Positions 34,163 to 41,140 of a DNA stretch of 64,000 nt are shown in pieces (the first letter of the stretch is position 1; the number at the start of each line of letters is the position of its first letter). The DNA comes from Calothrix anomala FACHB-343. Its GTDB lineage: Bacteria; Cyanobacteriota; Cyanobacteriia; Cyanobacteriales; Nostocaceae. Both the position numbers and the translations under genes were made by a program. The stretch lies in contig NZ_JACJQG010000007.1 in assembly GCF_014696435.1 (NCBI RefSeq), positions 1 to 64,000 of the forward strand, given 5' to 3'. The notes below the pieces were generated by a model, which was not told where the DNA came from, did no database searches, and was given only the letters and a program-made list of their open reading frames with translations.

Positions 34163-35737
34163 ATGGGAGATTTGAATGCAAGCTTTGATATTGTGGATAA
34201 TCAAACAAATAACATAACAACAGAATCAGAGCTAGAAGATATTCCAAATCATCACTCGCAAAACATAAATTTAGGCACAATTAAACCATCAGGAGATTTA
34301 TATCATCTGCAACCACCAATTTCTCAGCTACGGAACTTTCTTGAACCTTACGAATCGTTGATAAAAAATTTAATTCAACAATTCACTAACTTAGTTAAAG
34401 AAAGATTAACTGTAGATTACCAGACTATTAATCATTATATTTTAAATATTATTAGACAAACTTCAGAGGCTGACTTAGTATTTATTCTGGGTAGCGATCG
34501 CGCAGATAATTTATATATTAAATCTCATAGCAACCTGGGGCAAGATATCGACCAAAACTTTTATTTTAATACCTTAAATACACATATTTTACCTACAGTT
34601 TCTCAGGTAGCAATTTTTAACCCTGCTTATCATGGAATCTATAGATTGCATGAAGATACAAATGGTGAAAGAAAAGCTTTTGTCTTTATCCCTTTAAAAG
34701 GATTACCACAAGCTGAGGTGATTGTGGTTTGTGGTATTCCCCAAGATTCCTATCTCTTAGGTGATATCTATGGCAGGATATTATCTAGCTTTTATCAGGC
34801 TGTTCAGAAATTCTCCCATAGTCCAGCCTTAGTAGAAGCTGTAATTCTCGATGATTTAAAGAAAGACTTTGGCTTTATCGCCGCACATTTATATGAACGC
34901 AGATTTCAGCTATTTTGCGATCGCCTGCAAAAGATGATAGTTTATTTTGAACCAGTGCTGCATTTAGATCCTGACGAACTATTTATCAGTAGCTGGGAAG
35001 CCTTAGCCAGAGATCCCGATACTTTAACTGCACCTGTAGATTTATTTCAAGCTGCGGAAATGTGGGGAACGAGATTTATCGTTGAACTCGATCAATATTT
35101 TCTCAGAACTGCTACTTCTAGTTATCAAGAAGCGAGAAAACAATCTAAACAAAACAGATCTAAAGATATAGTACCCTTATCAGTTAACGTTTATCCTGAA
35201 TCTTTAATTAGAACTGCCTATTTTGAAACAGTACGCCAAGTACTACAAGAAAAAACTATTACTTCAAGAAATCTCATATTAGAAATTTCCGAAAAAACAG
35301 AATTACCCCAATTTAACGAAGGGGTACAATTAAAATCGCCCTTAACATTTTTTAAGAAAAAATTACTGGAATATGTAAGTCAATTACAAATTAGATTTGC
35401 CATTGATGATTTTGGTGTCGGTTATGCTTCCGTCACTCGTTTAGCCGGTTTAAACCCATCCCATGTGAAAATAGACCGCAATATTTTGTATCATCAACCA
35501 AGCGATATTATCATTCGCTTTGTCCATGAATTAGTCAGTGCAAATAATCTCAATCCATCAAATGTGATTGTTGAAGGGGTAGATGAAACTACCCCCATGA
35601 GCTTATATCATCTGCATAAAATCGGCGTTAAATATATTCAAGGACATATTGTTGCTAAACCCAGTCCCGATATTTATCGCCTCAGTAAAGAAAAGTATGA
35701 TGATTTACGCAGATTGATTTTAGAAAAGCCCCATTAA
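34163..35737 (+). CDS. EAL-domain protein (putative c-di-GMP phosphodiesterase)
   Basis: The 524-residue protein has an N-terminal part with GAF-like features (residues about 75-220: LTVDYQTINHYILNIIRQTS, VIVVCGIPQDS). The EAL domain lies at about 280-515: PLSVNVYPESLIRTAYFETV, LILEISEKTEL (EAL motif appears as EIS), IDDFGVGYASVTRL with the metal-binding Asp pair, HVKIDRNIL with the catalytic Lys, IVEGVDET, and YIQGHIVAKPS. The metal and base residues look intact, so activity is likely but the EAL triplet itself is changed. There is no GGDEF domain and no membrane segment. A long heptamer run lies just upstream. Confidence 0.82.
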   Translation: MGDLNASFDIVDNQTNNITTESELEDIPNHHSQNINLGTIKPSGDLYHLQPPISQLRNFLEPYESLIKNLIQQFTNLVKERLTVDYQTINHYILNIIRQTSEADLVFILGSDRADNLYIKSHSNLGQDIDQNFYFNTLNTHILPTVSQVAIFNPAYHGIYRLHEDTNGERKAFVFIPLKGLPQAEVIVVCGIPQDSYLLGDIYGRILSSFYQAVQKFSHSPALVEAVILDDLKKDFGFIAAHLYERRFQLFCDRLQKMIVYFEPVLHLDPDELFISSWEALARDPDTLTAPVDLFQAAEMWGTRFIVELDQYFLRTATSSYQEARKQSKQNRSKDIVPLSVNVYPESLIRTAYFETVRQVLQEKTITSRNLILEISEKTELPQFNEGVQLKSPLTFFKKKLLEYVSQLQIRFAIDDFGVGYASVTRLAGLNPSHVKIDRNILYHQPSDIIIRFVHELVSANNLNPSNVIVEGVDETTPMSLYHLHKIGVKYIQGHIVAKPSPDIYRLSKEKYDDLRRLILEKPH

Positions 35738-35798
35738 CAATTAGTAATTTGTAAGTAAGTCGGCGCTAATATTTCCAACTATGTTAAGAAATTTAAAT

Positions 35799-35876
35799 GT
35801 AGGGTGTGTTGTCGCGCAGCGCAACGCACCTTCAACAATTCAAGGTGCGTTAGCCTACGGCATAACACACCCTACA
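35799..35876. repeat. Inverted repeat TAGGGTGTGTT
   Basis: The arms TAGGGTGTGTTGTCGCGCAG and CTACGGCATAACACACCCTA, with inner GCAACGCACCTT and AAGGTGCGTTAG, form a long hairpin. Single or related copies occur at 22075-22109 and 54314-54392. It is a dispersed repeat. Confidence 0.75.
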
Positions 35877-36050
35877 GTTAATTTATATTTCTTCACATAC
35901 ATTGAATTTTTCTCACCGACTTACTTAGTTACTAATTCGTAATTAAGTTACGGATGGGGATTTAGACCGCACCCGTAACGTTACAACTTATAGAAGTGCG
36001 GCGTTCCACCTCGGTTTACAGCAGTTTTCACCTATTTGAACCACATCTGT

Positions 36051-36115
36051 CGTAGGGGCACGGCACCAGTAAAATTATTGTATGTACCAAAAGATTTTCG
36101 ATGCCGTGCCCCTAC
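36051..36115. repeat. 64-bp palindromic repeat GTAGGGGCACGGCA, copy 2
   Basis: This is the same 64-bp element as at 6820-6883 but in the opposite orientation, including the non-palindromic centre (GTAAAATTATTGTATGTACC). Confidence 0.8.
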
Positions 36116-36196
36116 AGTGTGGTCTATTTACCTGAAAATAGCTGTAATTACGAATTACGAATTACGAATTAGTAATTATGTTGAGAACCTTTAAAG

Positions 36197-36520
36197 TTAA
36201 GGATGATCGATTGCTTTCACTTTAACGGTTGTCAAAGCATAGTTGTCTCCATTGTGAGATTTAACTTTTACCTTAACTTTATCCCAATCTGCATATGACA
36301 CAGAAACATTAGCTACAGGGTCATAGCCAATCGCTAAAGATGTTCCTTCAGCTTTTCCTATCGTAACTTTAGGTTGATTTTTGATATTAACACGTGTCCC
36401 AGTTTCGGCTAAACCTTCAGCGCCGCTAGCTGATGCATTAGCAGTGACTCCCAATAAAGCACCACCTACGATCATCTCAGGTTTGATATTTTCTAAGTAA
36501 GATAAATCTGCAATATTCAT
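36197..36520 (-). CDS. Double-glycine-leader small protein 1
   Basis: The 107-residue protein starts at ATG 36520, with AAAGGTG upstream; a GTG three codons earlier is less likely. Its N-terminus is MNIADLSYLENIKPEMIVGG, a leader type shared with the proteins at 38222-38536 and 39748-40095: M-x-I-x-D-L-x-Y-(L/I)-E followed by a Gly-Gly. The rest (about 85 residues) is rich in Ala, Gly, Val and Lys and looks beta-prone (VKVKVKSHNGDNYALTTVKV). GG leaders are normally cleaved and exported by peptidase-containing ABC transporters; none is in the window. I do not recognise a named family. Confidence 0.75.
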   Translation of the reverse strand: MNIADLSYLENIKPEMIVGGALLGVTANASASGAEGLAETGTRVNIKNQPKVTIGKAEGTSLAIGYDPVANVSVSYADWDKVKVKVKSHNGDNYALTTVKVKAIDHP

Positions 36521-36822
36521 GATAATCACCTTTTTAGAAATGTTTTTCTAAGAAAGACTTGCTTGATGTGAAAAGTTAATTAATTTGAATTGGAAGAGCG
36601 ATCGCTAAATATGTAAGTTAGGTTGAGGAATAAAACTCAACCTACTGGACTGACATAACTAAAATAGTGCACTAGATGTAGGTTGGGTTGAGGCTTTGCG
36701 AAACCCAACATGAATTTCAGAAACTCAACATAGATGCTGGTGTTGGGTTTCCTTACGTCAACCCAACCTACATTTTTTTGCAACATTTTAGCCTTGCCAC
36801 GCCACTACGGATATTCTGATTA

Positions 36823-37737
36823 TTAAACAGCAATCAGATCTGCGCCCGACAGCCTCGATACACCATTTAAAATAGCAACTACGTCACTAGTACCACTAGC
36901 TAAGTCTGCGACAAGTAATATATCAGTACGACCATCACCAACAAAATTTCCAGTCAGGGGTCGATAGCTTGCCCCAGAACTAAAGTTTATTTGAAGCTTA
37001 TCAATACCAGACACAAAGTCAAAAATCAGAGCGTAGTCATCAGCTCCGGCGGTAGTATAAAACACACTACCTGCATTACCCAGCACAAATATATCTTGAG
37101 TATTATCATTAACGTTTGTCACATTGCCAAAATCGTCAACTGTACCGCCGCCATATAGGTTATCTATCTCAAAGATTCCGACGCCTCCGCCAAATCCACT
37201 GAGAACATCACTGCCGGCACCACCAACAAGGTAATCTCTAAAAAATCCAGCTTCATCATCTTCAACAGCACCGTTGGTACCGCCACTTAAATTATCATTG
37301 CCATCACCGCCAAACAGTACATCGCTACCAGCACTACCAATTAGGTTGTCAATACCGCCATCACCAAATAGAAGGTCGTTGCCTAGACTCCCATCAAGAA
37401 AGTCATTGCCCGCGCCCCCATAGACAATATCGTCACCTAAATCACCAAATAGTCTATCGTTACCAGCGTCTCCAAAAAGTACATCGCTGCCAACACCGCC
37501 AAACAGTTGATCGTTGCCATTACCGCCAATCAGCAAGTCGTTACCGAAGTCACCATACAAATTATCATTGCCGTTGCTGCCGTCGAGGGTATCATCACCA
37601 AGGCCACCAAATAAATTGTCTCGACCATTTCCGCCAGTCAAATTATCGTTGCCACCTTGCCCTAGTATGGTGTAATTCAAACTAGATCCCCGAAAACTTA
37701 AGACATCAGCATTATTAGTTCCTAAGATACTAGGCAT
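36823..37737 (-). CDS. RTX (hemolysin-type calcium-binding) repeat protein
   Basis: The 304-residue protein is mostly RTX nonapeptides (GGxGxDxLx): from residue about 27 to 155 there are some fourteen units such as GGNGNDQLFGGVGSDVLFG. Such repeats fold as a parallel beta-roll binding Ca2+ and are secreted by type I systems through a C-terminal signal. The C-terminal 130 residues (ALIFDFVSGIDKLQINF, VVAILNGVSRLSGADLIAV) are typical of short cyanobacterial RTX proteins. No enzymatic domain is present, so it may be an extracellular or surface-layer protein. It lies between two GG-leader peptide genes on the same strand. Confidence 0.9.
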   Translation of the reverse strand: MPSILGTNNADVLSFRGSSLNYTILGQGGNDNLTGGNGRDNLFGGLGDDTLDGSNGNDNLYGDFGNDLLIGGNGNDQLFGGVGSDVLFGDAGNDRLFGDLGDDIVYGGAGNDFLDGSLGNDLLFGDGGIDNLIGSAGSDVLFGGDGNDNLSGGTNGAVEDDEAGFFRDYLVGGAGSDVLSGFGGGVGIFEIDNLYGGGTVDDFGNVTNVNDNTQDIFVLGNAGSVFYTTAGADDYALIFDFVSGIDKLQINFSSGASYRPLTGNFVGDGRTDILLVADLASGTSDVVAILNGVSRLSGADLIAV

Positions 37738-38052
37738 ATTTTTTATCTCCTAAACTGTTAGATTCAAATTGTTTAAATACAAACTATGCACAGGCGAAAA
37801 TATCAAAGTATTAAATTTTCATATCAACGATAAAAGAAGAAATAATTTTTCTATCCAAGTCGATAAAATACCGCCTGAAATTGTTATTTGATATGCATAT
37901 TTAAATACTTAAAATTTAGGGCTAAGTTTTATTTTTTAATTAAATAGCACCTAATAAATTCCAGTTTATCACAGCAGATAAAATAAAAAACATTTTCAAT
38001 TTAAATTAATTAACACAAATAATATATGCGTGTTTTTTTAGTATAATCGTGA

Positions 38053-38086
38053 TTTTAAGAGAGGCAAGCGATTGCCTCTCTTAAAA
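38053..38086 (-). terminator. Strong palindromic terminator
   Basis: TTTTAAGAGAGGCA and TGCCTCTCTTAAAA pair perfectly around AGCGAT, giving a T-tract on both strands. It lies downstream of the leftward GG-leader gene and could also insulate the RTX gene. The rest of 37738-38221 is AT-rich and without a gene. Confidence 0.8.
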
Positions 38087-38221
38087 ATTTGTAGAGATAT
38101 TGTTACTAAATTTCAGCTTTGATAAATCTGCTTGAGATTTGAGTAACACTTAAATAAATTGTCCGTCAAGTTGCTATTTCGCAATAGTCGAAATCAATGT
38201 ACTTCACTGACAATTTATTTC

Positions 38222-38536
38222 TTAGTAACGGCGACCTTTTTCGATAGCAGCTACAGATTGAGAGATAGCAGAGGTGGTGTAACCAGCAGAATCAACTTGA
38301 GCATTGGTTAAGGTGCTGGAGAAGCCTGCGCCACCACCGTAGGTATCAGCAGTAGCAGTTGCTTGAGCAACATAACCTTCTAATTTGAGGTCTGTATCAA
38401 GCTTGGTAACAATTGTTTCTTTGATTACTTTCTTAACATCAGCTCTTAATTTGTAAGAGGTGTTGGTGTTATCACCACGTCCACCAAATACTTCTTCAGT
38501 TGCAGATTCAATGTAGGTTAAGTCGTTGATATTCAT
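38222..38536 (-). CDS. Double-glycine-leader small protein 2
   Basis: The 104-residue protein starts at ATG 38536, with AGGAG 7 nt upstream, rather than 14 codons earlier. The N-terminus MNINDLTYIESATEEVFGGR matches the leader of the two neighbours and ends in Gly-Gly. The mature part is rich in Thr, Ala, Ser and Gly (YGGGAGFSSTLTNAQVDS) and has no Cys. It could be an exported peptide or bacteriocin-like or signalling product; there is no direct evidence. Two palindromes GCCA-N3-TGGC lie 94-134 bp upstream of its start, in promoter position. A strong terminator follows at 38053. Confidence 0.78.
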   Translation of the reverse strand: MNINDLTYIESATEEVFGGRGDNTNTSYKLRADVKKVIKETIVTKLDTDLKLEGYVAQATATADTYGGGAGFSSTLTNAQVDSAGYTTSAISQSVAAIEKGRRY

Positions 38537-38629
38537 TGCTTTTCTCCTGAGATTTGTTTGTCTGTTTGTTGGAATCAACTCTGTTTGAGTTGTTGATATT
38601 AATATAGCTAAGTAAATTCTGCTTGTATC

Positions 38630-38670
38630 GCCAAATTGGCTGTAAATATGATTTTTCTAGCCAACTTGGC
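38630..38670 (-). promoter_or_regulatory. Paired palindromes GCCA-N3-TGGC
   Basis: GCCAAATTGGC (38630-38640) and GCCAACTTGGC (38660-38670) lie 30 bp apart, about three helical turns on one DNA face. They are 94-134 bp upstream of the GG-leader gene start at 38536. They look like operator half-sites for a dimeric regulator, which is not identified. Confidence 0.45.
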
Positions 38671-38941
38671 TAAGGAATTATTTTTTGTCTTGCCATCAAT
38701 CTACTAACCATAATTTAAAAATGAAAAAGCACCCAGATTTATGTTTTAAACCGGGTGATATCCTCAAAAAGTAATAGTTATGTAATTTATAAATCGTTTT
38801 CAAGCCAGAAAGCTCTTCAAAGACTACTGACTCTAATCGCGATAATTTGCATTATTTTAGATGCATAAGCTAAAAAATGATTAGAGACAAAGATTAAATA
38901 ACTGTCATTTGTCAACCATTTAGTTTATGCAACTTGAGAGA

Positions 38942-38985
38942 ATTCTAACTAATTTCCTCACAGATGAGGAGCCATTTTGGCTTCA
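38942..38985 (-). promoter_or_regulatory. Conserved upstream module with GCCATTTTGGC, copy 1
   Basis: ATTCTAACTAATTTC, 14 variable bases, then GCCATTTTGGCT. The same arrangement with the same spacing occurs at 40402-40442, upstream of the other GG-leader gene. This copy is about 410 bp upstream of the gene start at 38536. Confidence 0.45.
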
Positions 38986-39039
38986 TTTTTAGAGAAAGGG
39001 CATTAGAGGATGTTTTAAAAGTCCTTTCGTGGATAGCAA

Positions 39040-39122
39040 AAAGTTTTAAATCCCCCTAAATCCCCCTTCAAAAGGGGTACTTTGAGAAGTTTCCCCCCTT
39101 TTTAAGGGGGTAGGGGGGATCA
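39040..39122. repeat. Dispersed C/G-rich repeat (AAATCCCCCT type)
   Basis: AAATCCCCCTAAATCCCCCTT is followed by TTCAAAAGGGG and later CCCCCTTTTTAAGGGGG. This is a common cyanobacterial intergenic repeat with hairpin potential. It lies between the two conserved upstream modules. Confidence 0.6.
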
Positions 39123-39194
39123 ATCAGTGTCTAAAATCATAGCTACAAACTTTTCAAATAACCTCTTAGGTGTAGGTTAAGGAGCCTCATCACC

Positions 39195-39355
39195 TGTATC
39201 AACTTAACGCGAAACTCTTTTACCGCAAGGAATTGAAGTTCCTTGCTAATAGTAAAAGTCATCTTTAGATGACTAAATATCCTCAAAATCTTGAGTCTAC
39301 TTCAGTAGACTTGGGCTTTAGCCCTTGGAATTAATTCCCAGGCGGGCGACAAAGC
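39195..39355. repeat. Train of small hairpins with family-A-like end
   Basis: After GTATCAACTTAACGCG, an end like that of the family A element, there is a chain of perfect short hairpins: GCAAGGAATTGAAGTTCCTTGC (in two halves), AGTCATCTTTAGATGACT, AAGTCTACTTCAGTAGACTT, GGGCTTTAGCCC and GGAATTAATTCC. Later arms GTAGTGCGAGCGTCTCGCTC and GCGAGCAAGATGCTCGCACT pair across 39375-39533. No supported gene lies between 38990 and 39747. Confidence 0.6.
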
Positions 39356-39747
39356 TAAGACTGAGGCTATTTGTAGTGCGAGCGTCTCGCTCGCTAATGT
39401 TACAGCGAATTGCAAGTTGGTGAGGTACAGATAATCGTTGATTGTAGGGGCATTGGCACTGCCATGCCCCCAAGCGCGTACCTCATTTACCTGAAATATG
39501 CTGTAAAAAGCGAGCAAGATGCTCGCACTACGGAATATGGGTAATTTATTTTTTGTAAGTCCCATATTTTGTGTGAAATCGACTAATGGTAGCATCCTGG
39601 GAAACTTGAGAGTCTCGAATGAGTAACCAGACAAAATTAATTACAGTCATTGCGAACAAAGCGAACTAACCTCAAGCTGTGTGATTGCTTCAGCTAAATT
39701 CTACTTCCCTATATTCGCCGCAGACATTGGTAATTAATTTTGTTTAA

Positions 39748-40095
39748 TTATCTAGCATCAATGAATCTTTTTGCTGCTAACAATCTGGACTTGAGGACTG
39801 ATGATACATCTGTGGCTATTTTAATAAAGCCTTTAACCACAGTTGGTTTAGCTAAAGCAGCTAGAGTCTTGGTGAAATTTAAGCGTTGTGTCCAAATAGA
39901 TGTGCCAACTCCTGTACTAGGAGTAATAGTATTACCTCTAATTGTACTCACCCCATTGACTGTAATTACACCGTTACCACTGATGCGGAAACTTATAGCT
40001 ACACTGTTACTCGCACTGGAATCTGTGCCTCTACCTCCAAAAACAACTACATCGTCAGAAATAGGCTCTAAATACTCTAAATCATTAATTTTCAT
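39748..40095 (-). CDS. Double-glycine-leader small protein 3
   Basis: The 115-residue protein has the leader MKINDLEYLEPISDDVVVFG followed by Gly-Arg-Gly, close to that of protein 2 (VFGGRG in both). After the GG there is a Ser/Thr/Val-rich beta-prone stretch (VAISFRISGNGVITVNGVST), then a basic helical tail (VLKSRLLAAKRFIDAR). There is no Cys and no membrane segment. GGAG lies 11 nt before the ATG. A conserved module with palindrome GCCATTTTGGC lies about 310 bp upstream. It is probably an exported small protein of the same locus; the function is unknown. Confidence 0.72.
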   Translation of the reverse strand: MKINDLEYLEPISDDVVVFGGRGTDSSASNSVAISFRISGNGVITVNGVSTIRGNTITPSTGVGTSIWTQRLNFTKTLAALAKPTVVKGFIKIATDVSSVLKSRLLAAKRFIDAR

Positions 40096-40401
40096 GCTCT
40101 TGAATTCTCCAATTCATACATTGTGGAGCATCTATATTAGTTCTGACTTTAATAGTTAATAATTCACAAATATCGAGATTTGTGAAAACAACGGAATATA
40201 AAAAAATTAGATAATATTTAAACAACTAAGTAATTCGGTAATTGCACCTAACTATTTTAAAAACCTAAATAGACTATAAACCTTACACAACTCAAAAAAT
40301 AATTAAGCCATATTGAGATAAAATCTCTACGGCTAATTATAGATATATTGAGTAAATTTTAGGTGTTGATACTTTTCTCTTAACTCATCAACTCTTGTGA
40401 A

Positions 40402-40442
40402 ATTCTAGCTAATTTCACGATCATTTTGGTGCCATTTTGGCT
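40402..40442 (-). promoter_or_regulatory. Conserved upstream module with GCCATTTTGGC, copy 2
   Basis: ATTCTAGCTAATTTC, 14 bases, then GCCATTTTGGCT, matching copy 1 at 38942-38985 without gaps. It lies about 310 bp upstream of the GG-leader gene starting at 40095. Confidence 0.45.
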
Positions 40443-41140
40443 AACTTTTTTTAATTCCGAGAGATTTTAATCAGTCAGAAGTTGGCAAACAGAAGGTGGG
40501 TATGATTAAGAAATTGAGGGTATTTGTTCAGCTTATTCCACTATGAAACGAGATAAAGGGATGAGTTTTATGTTTATGACGCTTAACTGTTAACTGTATA
40601 TATAGGTGCGTAACAGCTTAACAAGATTAACCATCAATCTCTGCAAAAGTTCGCAGCAGTTATACCAATTCACGAACTTATTGATACAAATCACTTCCTC
40701 TGCTCCCTCTGCTTTTGGGGTTTCCTTCCTCAACCCACAACTCAACCTATATCTGCTCTTCCAACCAGTATTAGATGTAATTTCGAGACTTGTATGCACA
40801 CCTTAGCTTTTATGGTTGGGATGATCTGAACGCGATCGCCTACTAGCCGCAGCAATAGAAATTTTTTTTATACTGTATACTTAGCCTAGCTTACGGTCTA
40901 CTGGGTCTTAGTAAACACTACCTATGATGAATCGATTGTAACTAGTGTCAGTTGATAAAGTGTCACTCACCACATTACTGCAATTATTCTAGAAGAGATA
41001 TCCTTAGTTAGTGCAAGGAGTGATACCACTTCACAATATGTTTGTCACCAGTTATCTTCGTAATGCTCCTCCTTCAGGGGTTATTGCGGGTTTCAGATGT
41101 TGCATCAAACAAGTGGATTGGTATAAAGTTATACGAAGGG
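40443..41140. other. Long intergenic region before lpxD
   Basis: No convincing gene is seen in about 1.2 kb between the conserved module and lpxD. Short frames at 40590-40806 on both strands overlap each other and have no family features. The stretch 40900-41140 is unlike the repeats around it and ends at a terminator, so a non-coding RNA is possible but unproven. Confidence 0.4.

Follow-up and report, generated by a model that had tools for sequence, protein, structure and literature searches.

A probable detached cargo locus of double-glycine proteins and an RTX protein in Calothrix anomala FACHB-343

Three small proteins (P0001, P0002 and P0003) and an RTX protein are encoded on the minus strand of the DNA analyzed here, the first 64,000 nucleotides of contig NZ_JACJQG010000007.1 of Calothrix anomala FACHB-343 (hereafter the window). 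This locus was interpreted as probably being a detached set of cargo for export by a type I or peptidase-containing ATP-binding cassette (ABC) transporter (PCAT), a set that many related genomes keep beside the exporter. The sequence I-x-D-L-x-Y-L-E, a short spacer and GG would form the docking and cleavage leader for a HetC-like peptidase-containing ABC exporter. The long cyanobacterial exporter type (cNMP-binding, C39 and ABC) would work with HlyD and a SurA-like protein; its C39 domain would cleave behind the GG, and the cores (85–94 aa) would be exported. Loci of this kind also hold RTX proteins, and that of the window would be a second cargo. The exporters themselves would be encoded elsewhere in the genome, by a complete operon on contig C56, one on C78 and the HetC-like operon with HetP on C79. 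By analogy with EbfG of Synechococcus elongatus, the products would most likely have an extracellular role, at the surface or in the matrix.

Results

Three Small Proteins Share a Double-Glycine Leader

All four genes were confirmed when the open reading frames (ORFs) were read from position 35500 to 41000. P0003 (39748..40095, minus strand) is a 115-aa double-glycine precursor with a 94-aa core of net charge +10; its leader of 21 aa, MKINDLEYLEPISDDVVVFGG, occupies 40033..40095. P0002 (38222..38536, minus strand) is a precursor of 104 aa with the leader MNINDLTYIESATEEVFGG (38480..38536), and P0001 (36197..36520, minus strand) one of 107 aa with the leader MNIADLSYLENIKPEMIVGG (36461..36520). 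The ATG at 36520 was judged the more likely start of P0001 than the GTG at 36529 given in the ORF list. The RTX protein (304 aa; 36823..37737, minus strand) consists of RTX repeats and a C-terminal part. Intergenic distances, calculated from these coordinates, were 1,211, 484 and 302 bp, gaps too wide for a tight operon.

The leader common to the three small proteins is M-x-I-x-D-L-x-Y-(L/I)-E-x7-9-GG. All three leaders end in GG with a hydrophobic residue at position -4, as expected of double-glycine precursors, and it is highly likely, judging from sequence, that P0001, P0002 and P0003 are such export precursors. Their cores fell into three separate clusters, and none of the proteins contains Cys. 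A first-pass annotation of the window, made from the letters alone, had described three small proteins sharing a GG leader on the strand of the RTX gene, with unlike C-terminal parts devoid of Cys; this description held.

The specificity of the leader was examined with a degenerate DNA pattern for M-x-I-x-D-(L/F)-x-Y-(L/I/M/F)-(E/D). Exactly three zero-mismatch matches were obtained in the C. anomala genome, all of them in the window; with up to two mismatches, matches (43) and control (40) were alike. When the last residue was restricted to E and the search was extended to 218 genomes of the family, C. anomala included, this strict leader gave 116 matches in 70 genomes and 8 in the reversed control (sums made by hand); for C. 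anomala itself the figures were 3 and 0. A chance likeness of the three N-termini was rejected on these counts. Within the genus, the strict leader was found in two of nine genomes, C. anomala and Calothrix brevissima NIES-22 (G001); three others (G003, G004 and G008) encode a relative of P0001; they also have P0002-like peptides, linked to an exporter, whose leader is the variant MIISDLNLLE.

A set of 147 distinct leader peptides was collected with a search expression that itself demanded GG, GS or GA and the D of the motif. The motif residues I, L, Y and E were present in 146, 134, 124 and 138 of them, respectively; 118 leaders ended in GG, 18 in GS and 11 in GA, and position -4 was I, V or L in 144. 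The median identity over 1,500 random pairs was 58% in the leader and 23% in the core. No Pfam match over the cut-off and no NCBIfam match at E 1 was obtained for P0001–P0003, which also matched none of the NHLP and Nif11 (N11P) leader models of NCBIfam and Pfam at E 1. Likewise, 25 members of the P0002 class matched no curated leader model at E 0.01, apart from three single-member matches to unrelated models. NHLP, Nif11 or another named bacteriocin leader was rejected, since these models were without match.

Related Genomes Keep Such Peptides Beside a C39 Exporter Operon

Sixty-one loci, chosen from the 116 matches, were fetched from other genomes; 60 carry the strict leader and one (L090) does not. 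A long-type C39 exporter was present in 47 of the 61 stretches, as the main-type set of exporter, HlyD and SurA-like genes in 42 and as the HetC-like type only in five. The C39-peptidase exporters and HlyD partners that the first-pass annotation had proposed to look for were thus found in relatives. The fetched loci are related to one another, and their counts are not independent. The conserved operon consists of an exporter of ~1,025 aa with the layout cNMP-binding/C39-peptidase/ABC, an HlyD of ~515 aa and a SurA-like protein of ~260 aa, followed by peptide genes and often RTX genes.

A second set comprised 32 named loci, whose genomes are partly shared with the previous set; ten shorter loci were left out. 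Of the 22 longer than 15 kb, 21 hold the exporter together with HlyD and a SurA-like gene, and only the sister island of G001 does not. RTX genes were also present in 21 of these 22. By peptide class, an exporter was found in the stretch for 44 of 48 occurrences of P0002-class genes and for 15 of 19 of P0001-class genes, always on the same strand (44/44 and 15/15). In G003, G004 and G008 the P0001-class gene lies 4–5 kb downstream of the SurA-like gene of the exporter operon, again on the same strand.

Two further observations were made at the fetched loci. At L097, L145 and L147, in three genomes, the exporter is split into two adjacent frames, either the gene itself or its assembly being frameshifted. 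SurA-like genes of the genus (L238, L241 and L242) are adjoined by arrays of short double-glycine peptides, most of which contain Cys (MANIKVNDLLNLNL...).

Ten C39 matches were obtained in the C. anomala genome. Contig C56 carries a complete main-type operon, C78 a second one, and C79 a HetC-like exporter with HlyD, HetP and SurA-like genes. In all three exporters the DCG...HY peptidase motif (Cys, His), Walker A and LSGGQ are kept, and the domain scan returned cNMP binding, C39, ABC transmembrane and ABC ATPase. The SurA-like protein of C56 matched TIGR04500 (putative peptide maturation protein) with 60.9 bits, below the cut-off of 180, and has relatives in all nine genomes of the genus. Since these exporters lie on contigs other than that of the window, the window holds cargo without its exporter. 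From the leader and the linkage in relatives, export of P0001–P0003 by a long-type C39 exporter seems likely.

The main-type operons of C. anomala have other neighbors as well. Small double-glycine peptides with other leader types (MSRITISDLAID... and MANITIQNLD...) are encoded on C56 (L092:14842-15060, minus strand) and C78 (L234:510-662, plus strand), and an RTX gene for 2,481 aa lies on C78 upstream of the second main-type operon, on its strand (L091:12027-19472, minus).

The RTX Protein May Be a Second Cargo of the Exporter

The RTX protein of the window matched PF00353 (HemolysinCabind) in five stretches with an E value of 7.2e-30, confirming the repeats, and has no double-glycine leader. 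Its last 97 residues were searched in 59 genomes, C. anomala included, and were found in eight: C. anomala, G001, G009, G013, G018, G019 and two with weak matches. The relatives in G009, G013, G018 and G019 are located at exporter loci; the closest relatives of the window RTX protein thus lie mostly at such loci. Counting only genes with at least three repeat motifs, RTX genes were present at 29 of the 42 main-type exporter loci and at none of the five HetC-like-only loci. All 53 counted RTX genes (hand count) at these 29 loci are on the strand of the exporter, and no other ABC exporter is present in these stretches.

The usual exporters of RTX cargo in type I secretion have a C39-like region without the DCG motif. 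The window protein shares with the RTX proteins of HlyB/HlyD systems the PF00353 repeats followed by a C-terminal part; it differs in lying among double-glycine cargo, and the exporters of C56, C78 and C79 keep the peptidase Cys. A serious though less probable explanation is that only the GG peptides are PCAT cargo and that the RTX protein, a mere neighbor, leaves by an exporter of its own. The lack of a leader in the window RTX protein suits this explanation, as do the exporters on C124 and C5 of C. anomala, whose C39-like regions lack DCG and the first of which is about 0.6 kb from a SurA-like gene. Against it stand the absence of a second ABC exporter from all 29 RTX-bearing stretches, the common strand of the counted genes and the recurrence of the window subfamily at exporter loci. 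Moreover, the best NCBIfam match of the C56 exporter is the HlyB model TIGR01846 (658.9 bits, below the cut-off of 725.55). The linkage in relatives slightly favors the RTX protein as co-cargo of the long-type C39 exporter.

Core Composition and Predicted Fold Suggest Possible Surface or Matrix Proteins

The P0002 core belongs to the largest cluster of the set (69 of 147 peptides) and that of P0001 to a cluster of 22, while P0003 forms a pair with its counterpart in the sister genome; other clusters comprise Ser-rich, FCE-type and YGKD-repeat peptides. Cores are 85–94 aa long in the window and 44–120 aa over the set; they are rich in Ser, Ala, Thr, Val, Gly and Asn, and Cys occurs in five of the 147. 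P0001 was found in 24 of the 218 genomes, its own included. For P0003 the only convincing match besides its own was in G001; a match in G178 (E 8.2e-4, 27% identity, three internal stops) was taken as chance. The P0002 class extends beyond Nostocales to Microseira and to metagenome-assembled genomes (MAGs) of a Pseudanabaenaceae, Xenococcaceae and Pleurocapsa. As a separate observation, leader peptides whose core is a tandem ~GYGKDWGK repeat occur at L125 (9822) and L129 (9909), with no exporter in the stretch.

In the structure model of P0001, the leader is disordered (predicted local distance difference test, pLDDT, below 50 at residues 1–6 and 8–19), and the core is predicted to be an all-beta folded protein with block means of 89–96. 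The condition that the first-pass annotation had named as refuting, a leader forming part of a conserved folded domain, thus did not apply to P0001. No significant match of the P0001 fold to solved structures was obtained, which does not show a new fold.

Apart from small gaps, G001 is collinear with the window between the EAL gene and ~41,387. A 758-bp stretch holding P0001 (35876..36633) is present in C. anomala only, with ~10 bp at the collinear position of G001. The ratio of nonsynonymous to synonymous divergence (dN/dS) was 0.29 for P0003, indicating constraint, 0.48 for the less constrained RTX gene and 0.23 for the flanking EAL gene. In P0002, 18 of 19 leader residues are kept, the core is 49% identical, dN/dS is ~1 and silent divergence (0.43) is about three times that of P0003 (0.15) and the RTX gene (0.14). 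This combination suggests exchange or fast change of the P0002 core. P0003 showed the opposite trend, with a leader 76% and a core 95% identical.

These properties bear on whether the products are antimicrobial weapons, bacteriocin- or microcin-like, that leave the cell through the same machinery. Such loci are classed in that way in the text of PMC3140520 and PMC4558948, and hypervariable cores, above all the P0002 core that differs so strongly between sister genomes, would fit, as would the net charge of the P0003 core and the short, partly Cys-containing double-glycine peptides at other exporter loci of the genus. On the other hand, the median net charge of the two large clusters is -1 and 0, the cores have the composition described above, with Cys in few of them, and P0001 is predicted to fold as a beta protein; bacteriocin-like signs of charge and helix were mixed across the cores. 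A weapon function was thus considered unlikely. Because the main clusters are near neutral and have the residue composition given above, P0001 is predicted beta and RTX genes are frequent, extracellular surface or matrix proteins were preferred, a role to which analogy lends about an even chance; P0003 may be an exception.

The analogy is with EbfG1-4 of S. elongatus PCC 7942. According to the text of PMC4997328 and PMC9981879, these small double-glycine proteins enable biofilms to form; EbfG1-3 form amyloid, and EbfG4 is found both on the cell surface and in the matrix. Both are sets of small double-glycine proteins, those of S. elongatus being secreted with the help of the C39 transporter PteB; they are likened here by description. 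According to the text of PMC4997328 (2016), mature EbfG proteins have no homology to proteins of other cyanobacteria, and the text of these two papers, as searched, mentions no RTX partner, a difference from the window.

The Leader Equals a Motif Known From HetP-Type Precursors

The first-pass annotation had been unable to match the leader to a named family. This did not hold, since the leader equals KIxDLxYLEx10GG, a motif reported in HetP proteins in the text of PMC3140520 (Wang et al., 2011), where the exporter-locus groups were defined, and found again in that of PMC4558948; the kind is therefore already known. These were the only two papers with this motif among the matches listed, and some of the leader peptides may be among the 150 "other" precursors of Wang et al. 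(2011). The window leaders contain the core of the motif with a spacer of 7–9 instead of 10 residues, and only P0003 has the initial K. HetP-type precursors thus share with the window proteins I-x-D-L-x-Y-L-E, a short spacer, GG and the long-type C39 exporter/HlyD/SurA machinery in the neighborhood; they differ in that the HetP proteins examined carry the motif in the C-terminal tail, whereas the window proteins have it at the N-terminus, with spacers of 8, 7 and 9, and no HetP domain (NF037966 was not found in P0001–P0003 in NCBIfam at E 1; the HetP protein of C79 scores 8.8e-33). Groups I and II of the bacteriocin clusters of Wang et al. (2011) have the same exporter with CAP_ED/cNMP-binding, C39 and ABC parts, HlyD and SurA-like protein. 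They differ in that "RTX" has 0 occurrences in the text of the paper and in that cargo and exporter are unlinked in C. anomala.

HetP tails were examined at L082, L098, L100, L105, L107 and L134–L136. I-K/N/H-D-L-x-Y-L-E followed by GG was seen by eye in eight of ten proteins from exporter loci, and with a strict expression in eight of 29 homologues (L193–L221, in 20 of 25 genomes) among the matches listed. Some tails keep the motif without GG, among them the copy on C124 of C. anomala (L216), and some homologues lack the motif.

HetC has the same cNMP-binding, C39 peptidase and ABC layout, and the C79 exporter of C. anomala adjoins a HetP gene. The text of PMC10986499 describes the substrate of HetC as unknown and states that hetC has no gene for a membrane fusion protein near it; the C79 operon differs in including HlyD. 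The products could instead be peptide signals that pattern the filament or pass between cells, a role proposed for the HetC substrate; this would agree with the HetC-like exporters and with the motif in HetP tails. Such a function nevertheless appears improbable: cores of 85–94 aa are long for peptide signals, near-identical tandem copies exist at some loci (L087), and few genomes of the genus have the strict leader, though three more have a P0001 relative. It is just as doubtful that the motif is a docking tag, guiding proteins to the exporter without being cleaved in every case, as the K-I-K-D-L-A-Y-L-E without GG of some HetP tails might suggest, given the I, V or L at -4 before the GG/GS/GA that the search expression itself demanded.

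A Presumed Promoter Module Upstream of P0002

A palindrome, GCCA-N3-TGGC, lies at 38630..38640, just upstream of a -10-like box of P0002, and may be an operator. Two more were found upstream of P0002, at 38660..38670 (AGCCAACTTGGCT) and 38971..38981 (AGCCATTTTGGCT), and one upstream of P0003 (40431..40441). The box, TATATT (38601..38606, minus strand), would belong to the P0002 promoter and has a similar place in other genera as judged by eye. It is followed by a hairpin, CAACTC-AAACA-GAGTTG (38576..38592, minus strand), in the 5' untranslated region, so that the order of the module is proximal palindrome, GATACA, TATATT box and hairpin. Where genes carry the hairpin, it starts 40–61 nt before the start codon. 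At the fetched loci it was present upstream of nine of 146 leader-peptide genes and one of 608 other genes of at least 150 aa (mean of shuffles, 0.16). Folding z-scores for four sequences were between -1.5 and -3.3. The stem is nearly invariant. The loop differs in length between sequences, which would fit a hairpin in RNA better than a dyad fixed in DNA. No Rfam family was matched by the hairpin; a mir-660 match at 39050–39120, in the gap between P0003 and P0002, was dismissed as spurious, being far below the gathering score and away from the hairpin. Promoter-like sites over the whole locus numbered 16, against 14.5 in shuffles, and terminator-like sites 5, against 2.9.

The combination of palindrome and hairpin was then searched in the 218 genomes irrespective of coding sequence, leader genes being judged by eye. 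It was found at 26 places, 16 of them before leader-peptide genes; this search was not fully independent, as nine of the 16 had served to draw the pattern and one (G087) had already been seen. The remaining six (G092, G106, G107, G119, G183 and G213) had not been examined previously, and four of these leader genes had escaped the strict leader pattern.

The extended palindrome AGCCA-N3-TGGCT occurs at 11 places in the C. anomala genome, against 3 control matches per strand: two upstream of P0002, one upstream of HlyD in the HetC-like operon of C79, one on C24 and seven elsewhere, several of these seven inside genes. The C24 copy is perfect and is flanked by a short-type C39 exporter gene on one side and a gene of weak HlyD similarity on the other (L253; 63814-63826). 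A palindrome was present 168–359 bp upstream of HlyD in all five fetched loci with a HetC-like exporter and HlyD (L082, L098, L100, L105 and L107). As P0002 and the C79 operon share GCCA-N3-TGGC, cargo and exporter may be co-regulated though unlinked; for the window cargo and the C79 operon the shared site makes this conceivable, at somewhat less than even chances. The palindrome was rejected as a general exporter signal, GCCA-N3-TGGC being within 700 bp upstream of only five of 49 exporter genes. A helix-turn-helix gene adjacent to the C56 operon was dropped as the regulator of the module, a relative being upstream of one of 49 exporters, a count whose distance rule missed a similar frame overlapping the C78 exporter.

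Discussion

The interpretation of the window as detached cargo of a long-type C39 exporter has to be weighed against several observations. None of the ten C39 matches of C. anomala is on the window contig, the stretch of G001 also lacks a C39 exporter, and 14 of the 61 fetched loci have no exporter in the stretch, some of these being on short contigs. With regard to the RTX protein, the exporters of C124 and C5 could carry it instead, and proteins that resemble the front of the cluster RTX (27–30% identity) but have fewer than three repeats, and so were uncounted, are in several cases opposite the exporter (L114, L115, L116 and L135). The P0003 core, cationic and weakly inclined to form helix, would be more in keeping with a membrane-active peptide, and the P0002 model (mean pLDDT 53.5) was too poor for a fold search. 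Finally, most P0002-class genes are without the promoter module, the hairpin being present in four of 68, and ten module places have no leader gene, the reversed control having given 13 (hand count).

A wider reading was also considered, in which one C39-active HlyB-like exporter handles both double-glycine proteins, which are cleaved, and RTX proteins, and in which I-x-D-L-x-Y-L-E is the single docking code of HetC-type exporters. As a whole this is rather unlikely. If it were true, HetP would dock to HetC by its tail, as a partner or a substrate; the window peptides would be freely distributed cargo kept in step with a distant exporter by the shared palindromic operator.

The RTX partnership and the promoter module were not found in the literature searched. 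A published but little-used motif is now tied to a large family of probably exported proteins, with their exporter operon named and RTX proteins added as likely co-cargo. Since HetP tails carry the leader motif, they offer a direct test of what HetC recognizes in heterocyst development, and the motif thereby bears on the substrate of HetC. With the promoter module, additional cargo genes can be picked up at the DNA level, and the module hints at a way in which cargo distant from its exporter may be regulated.

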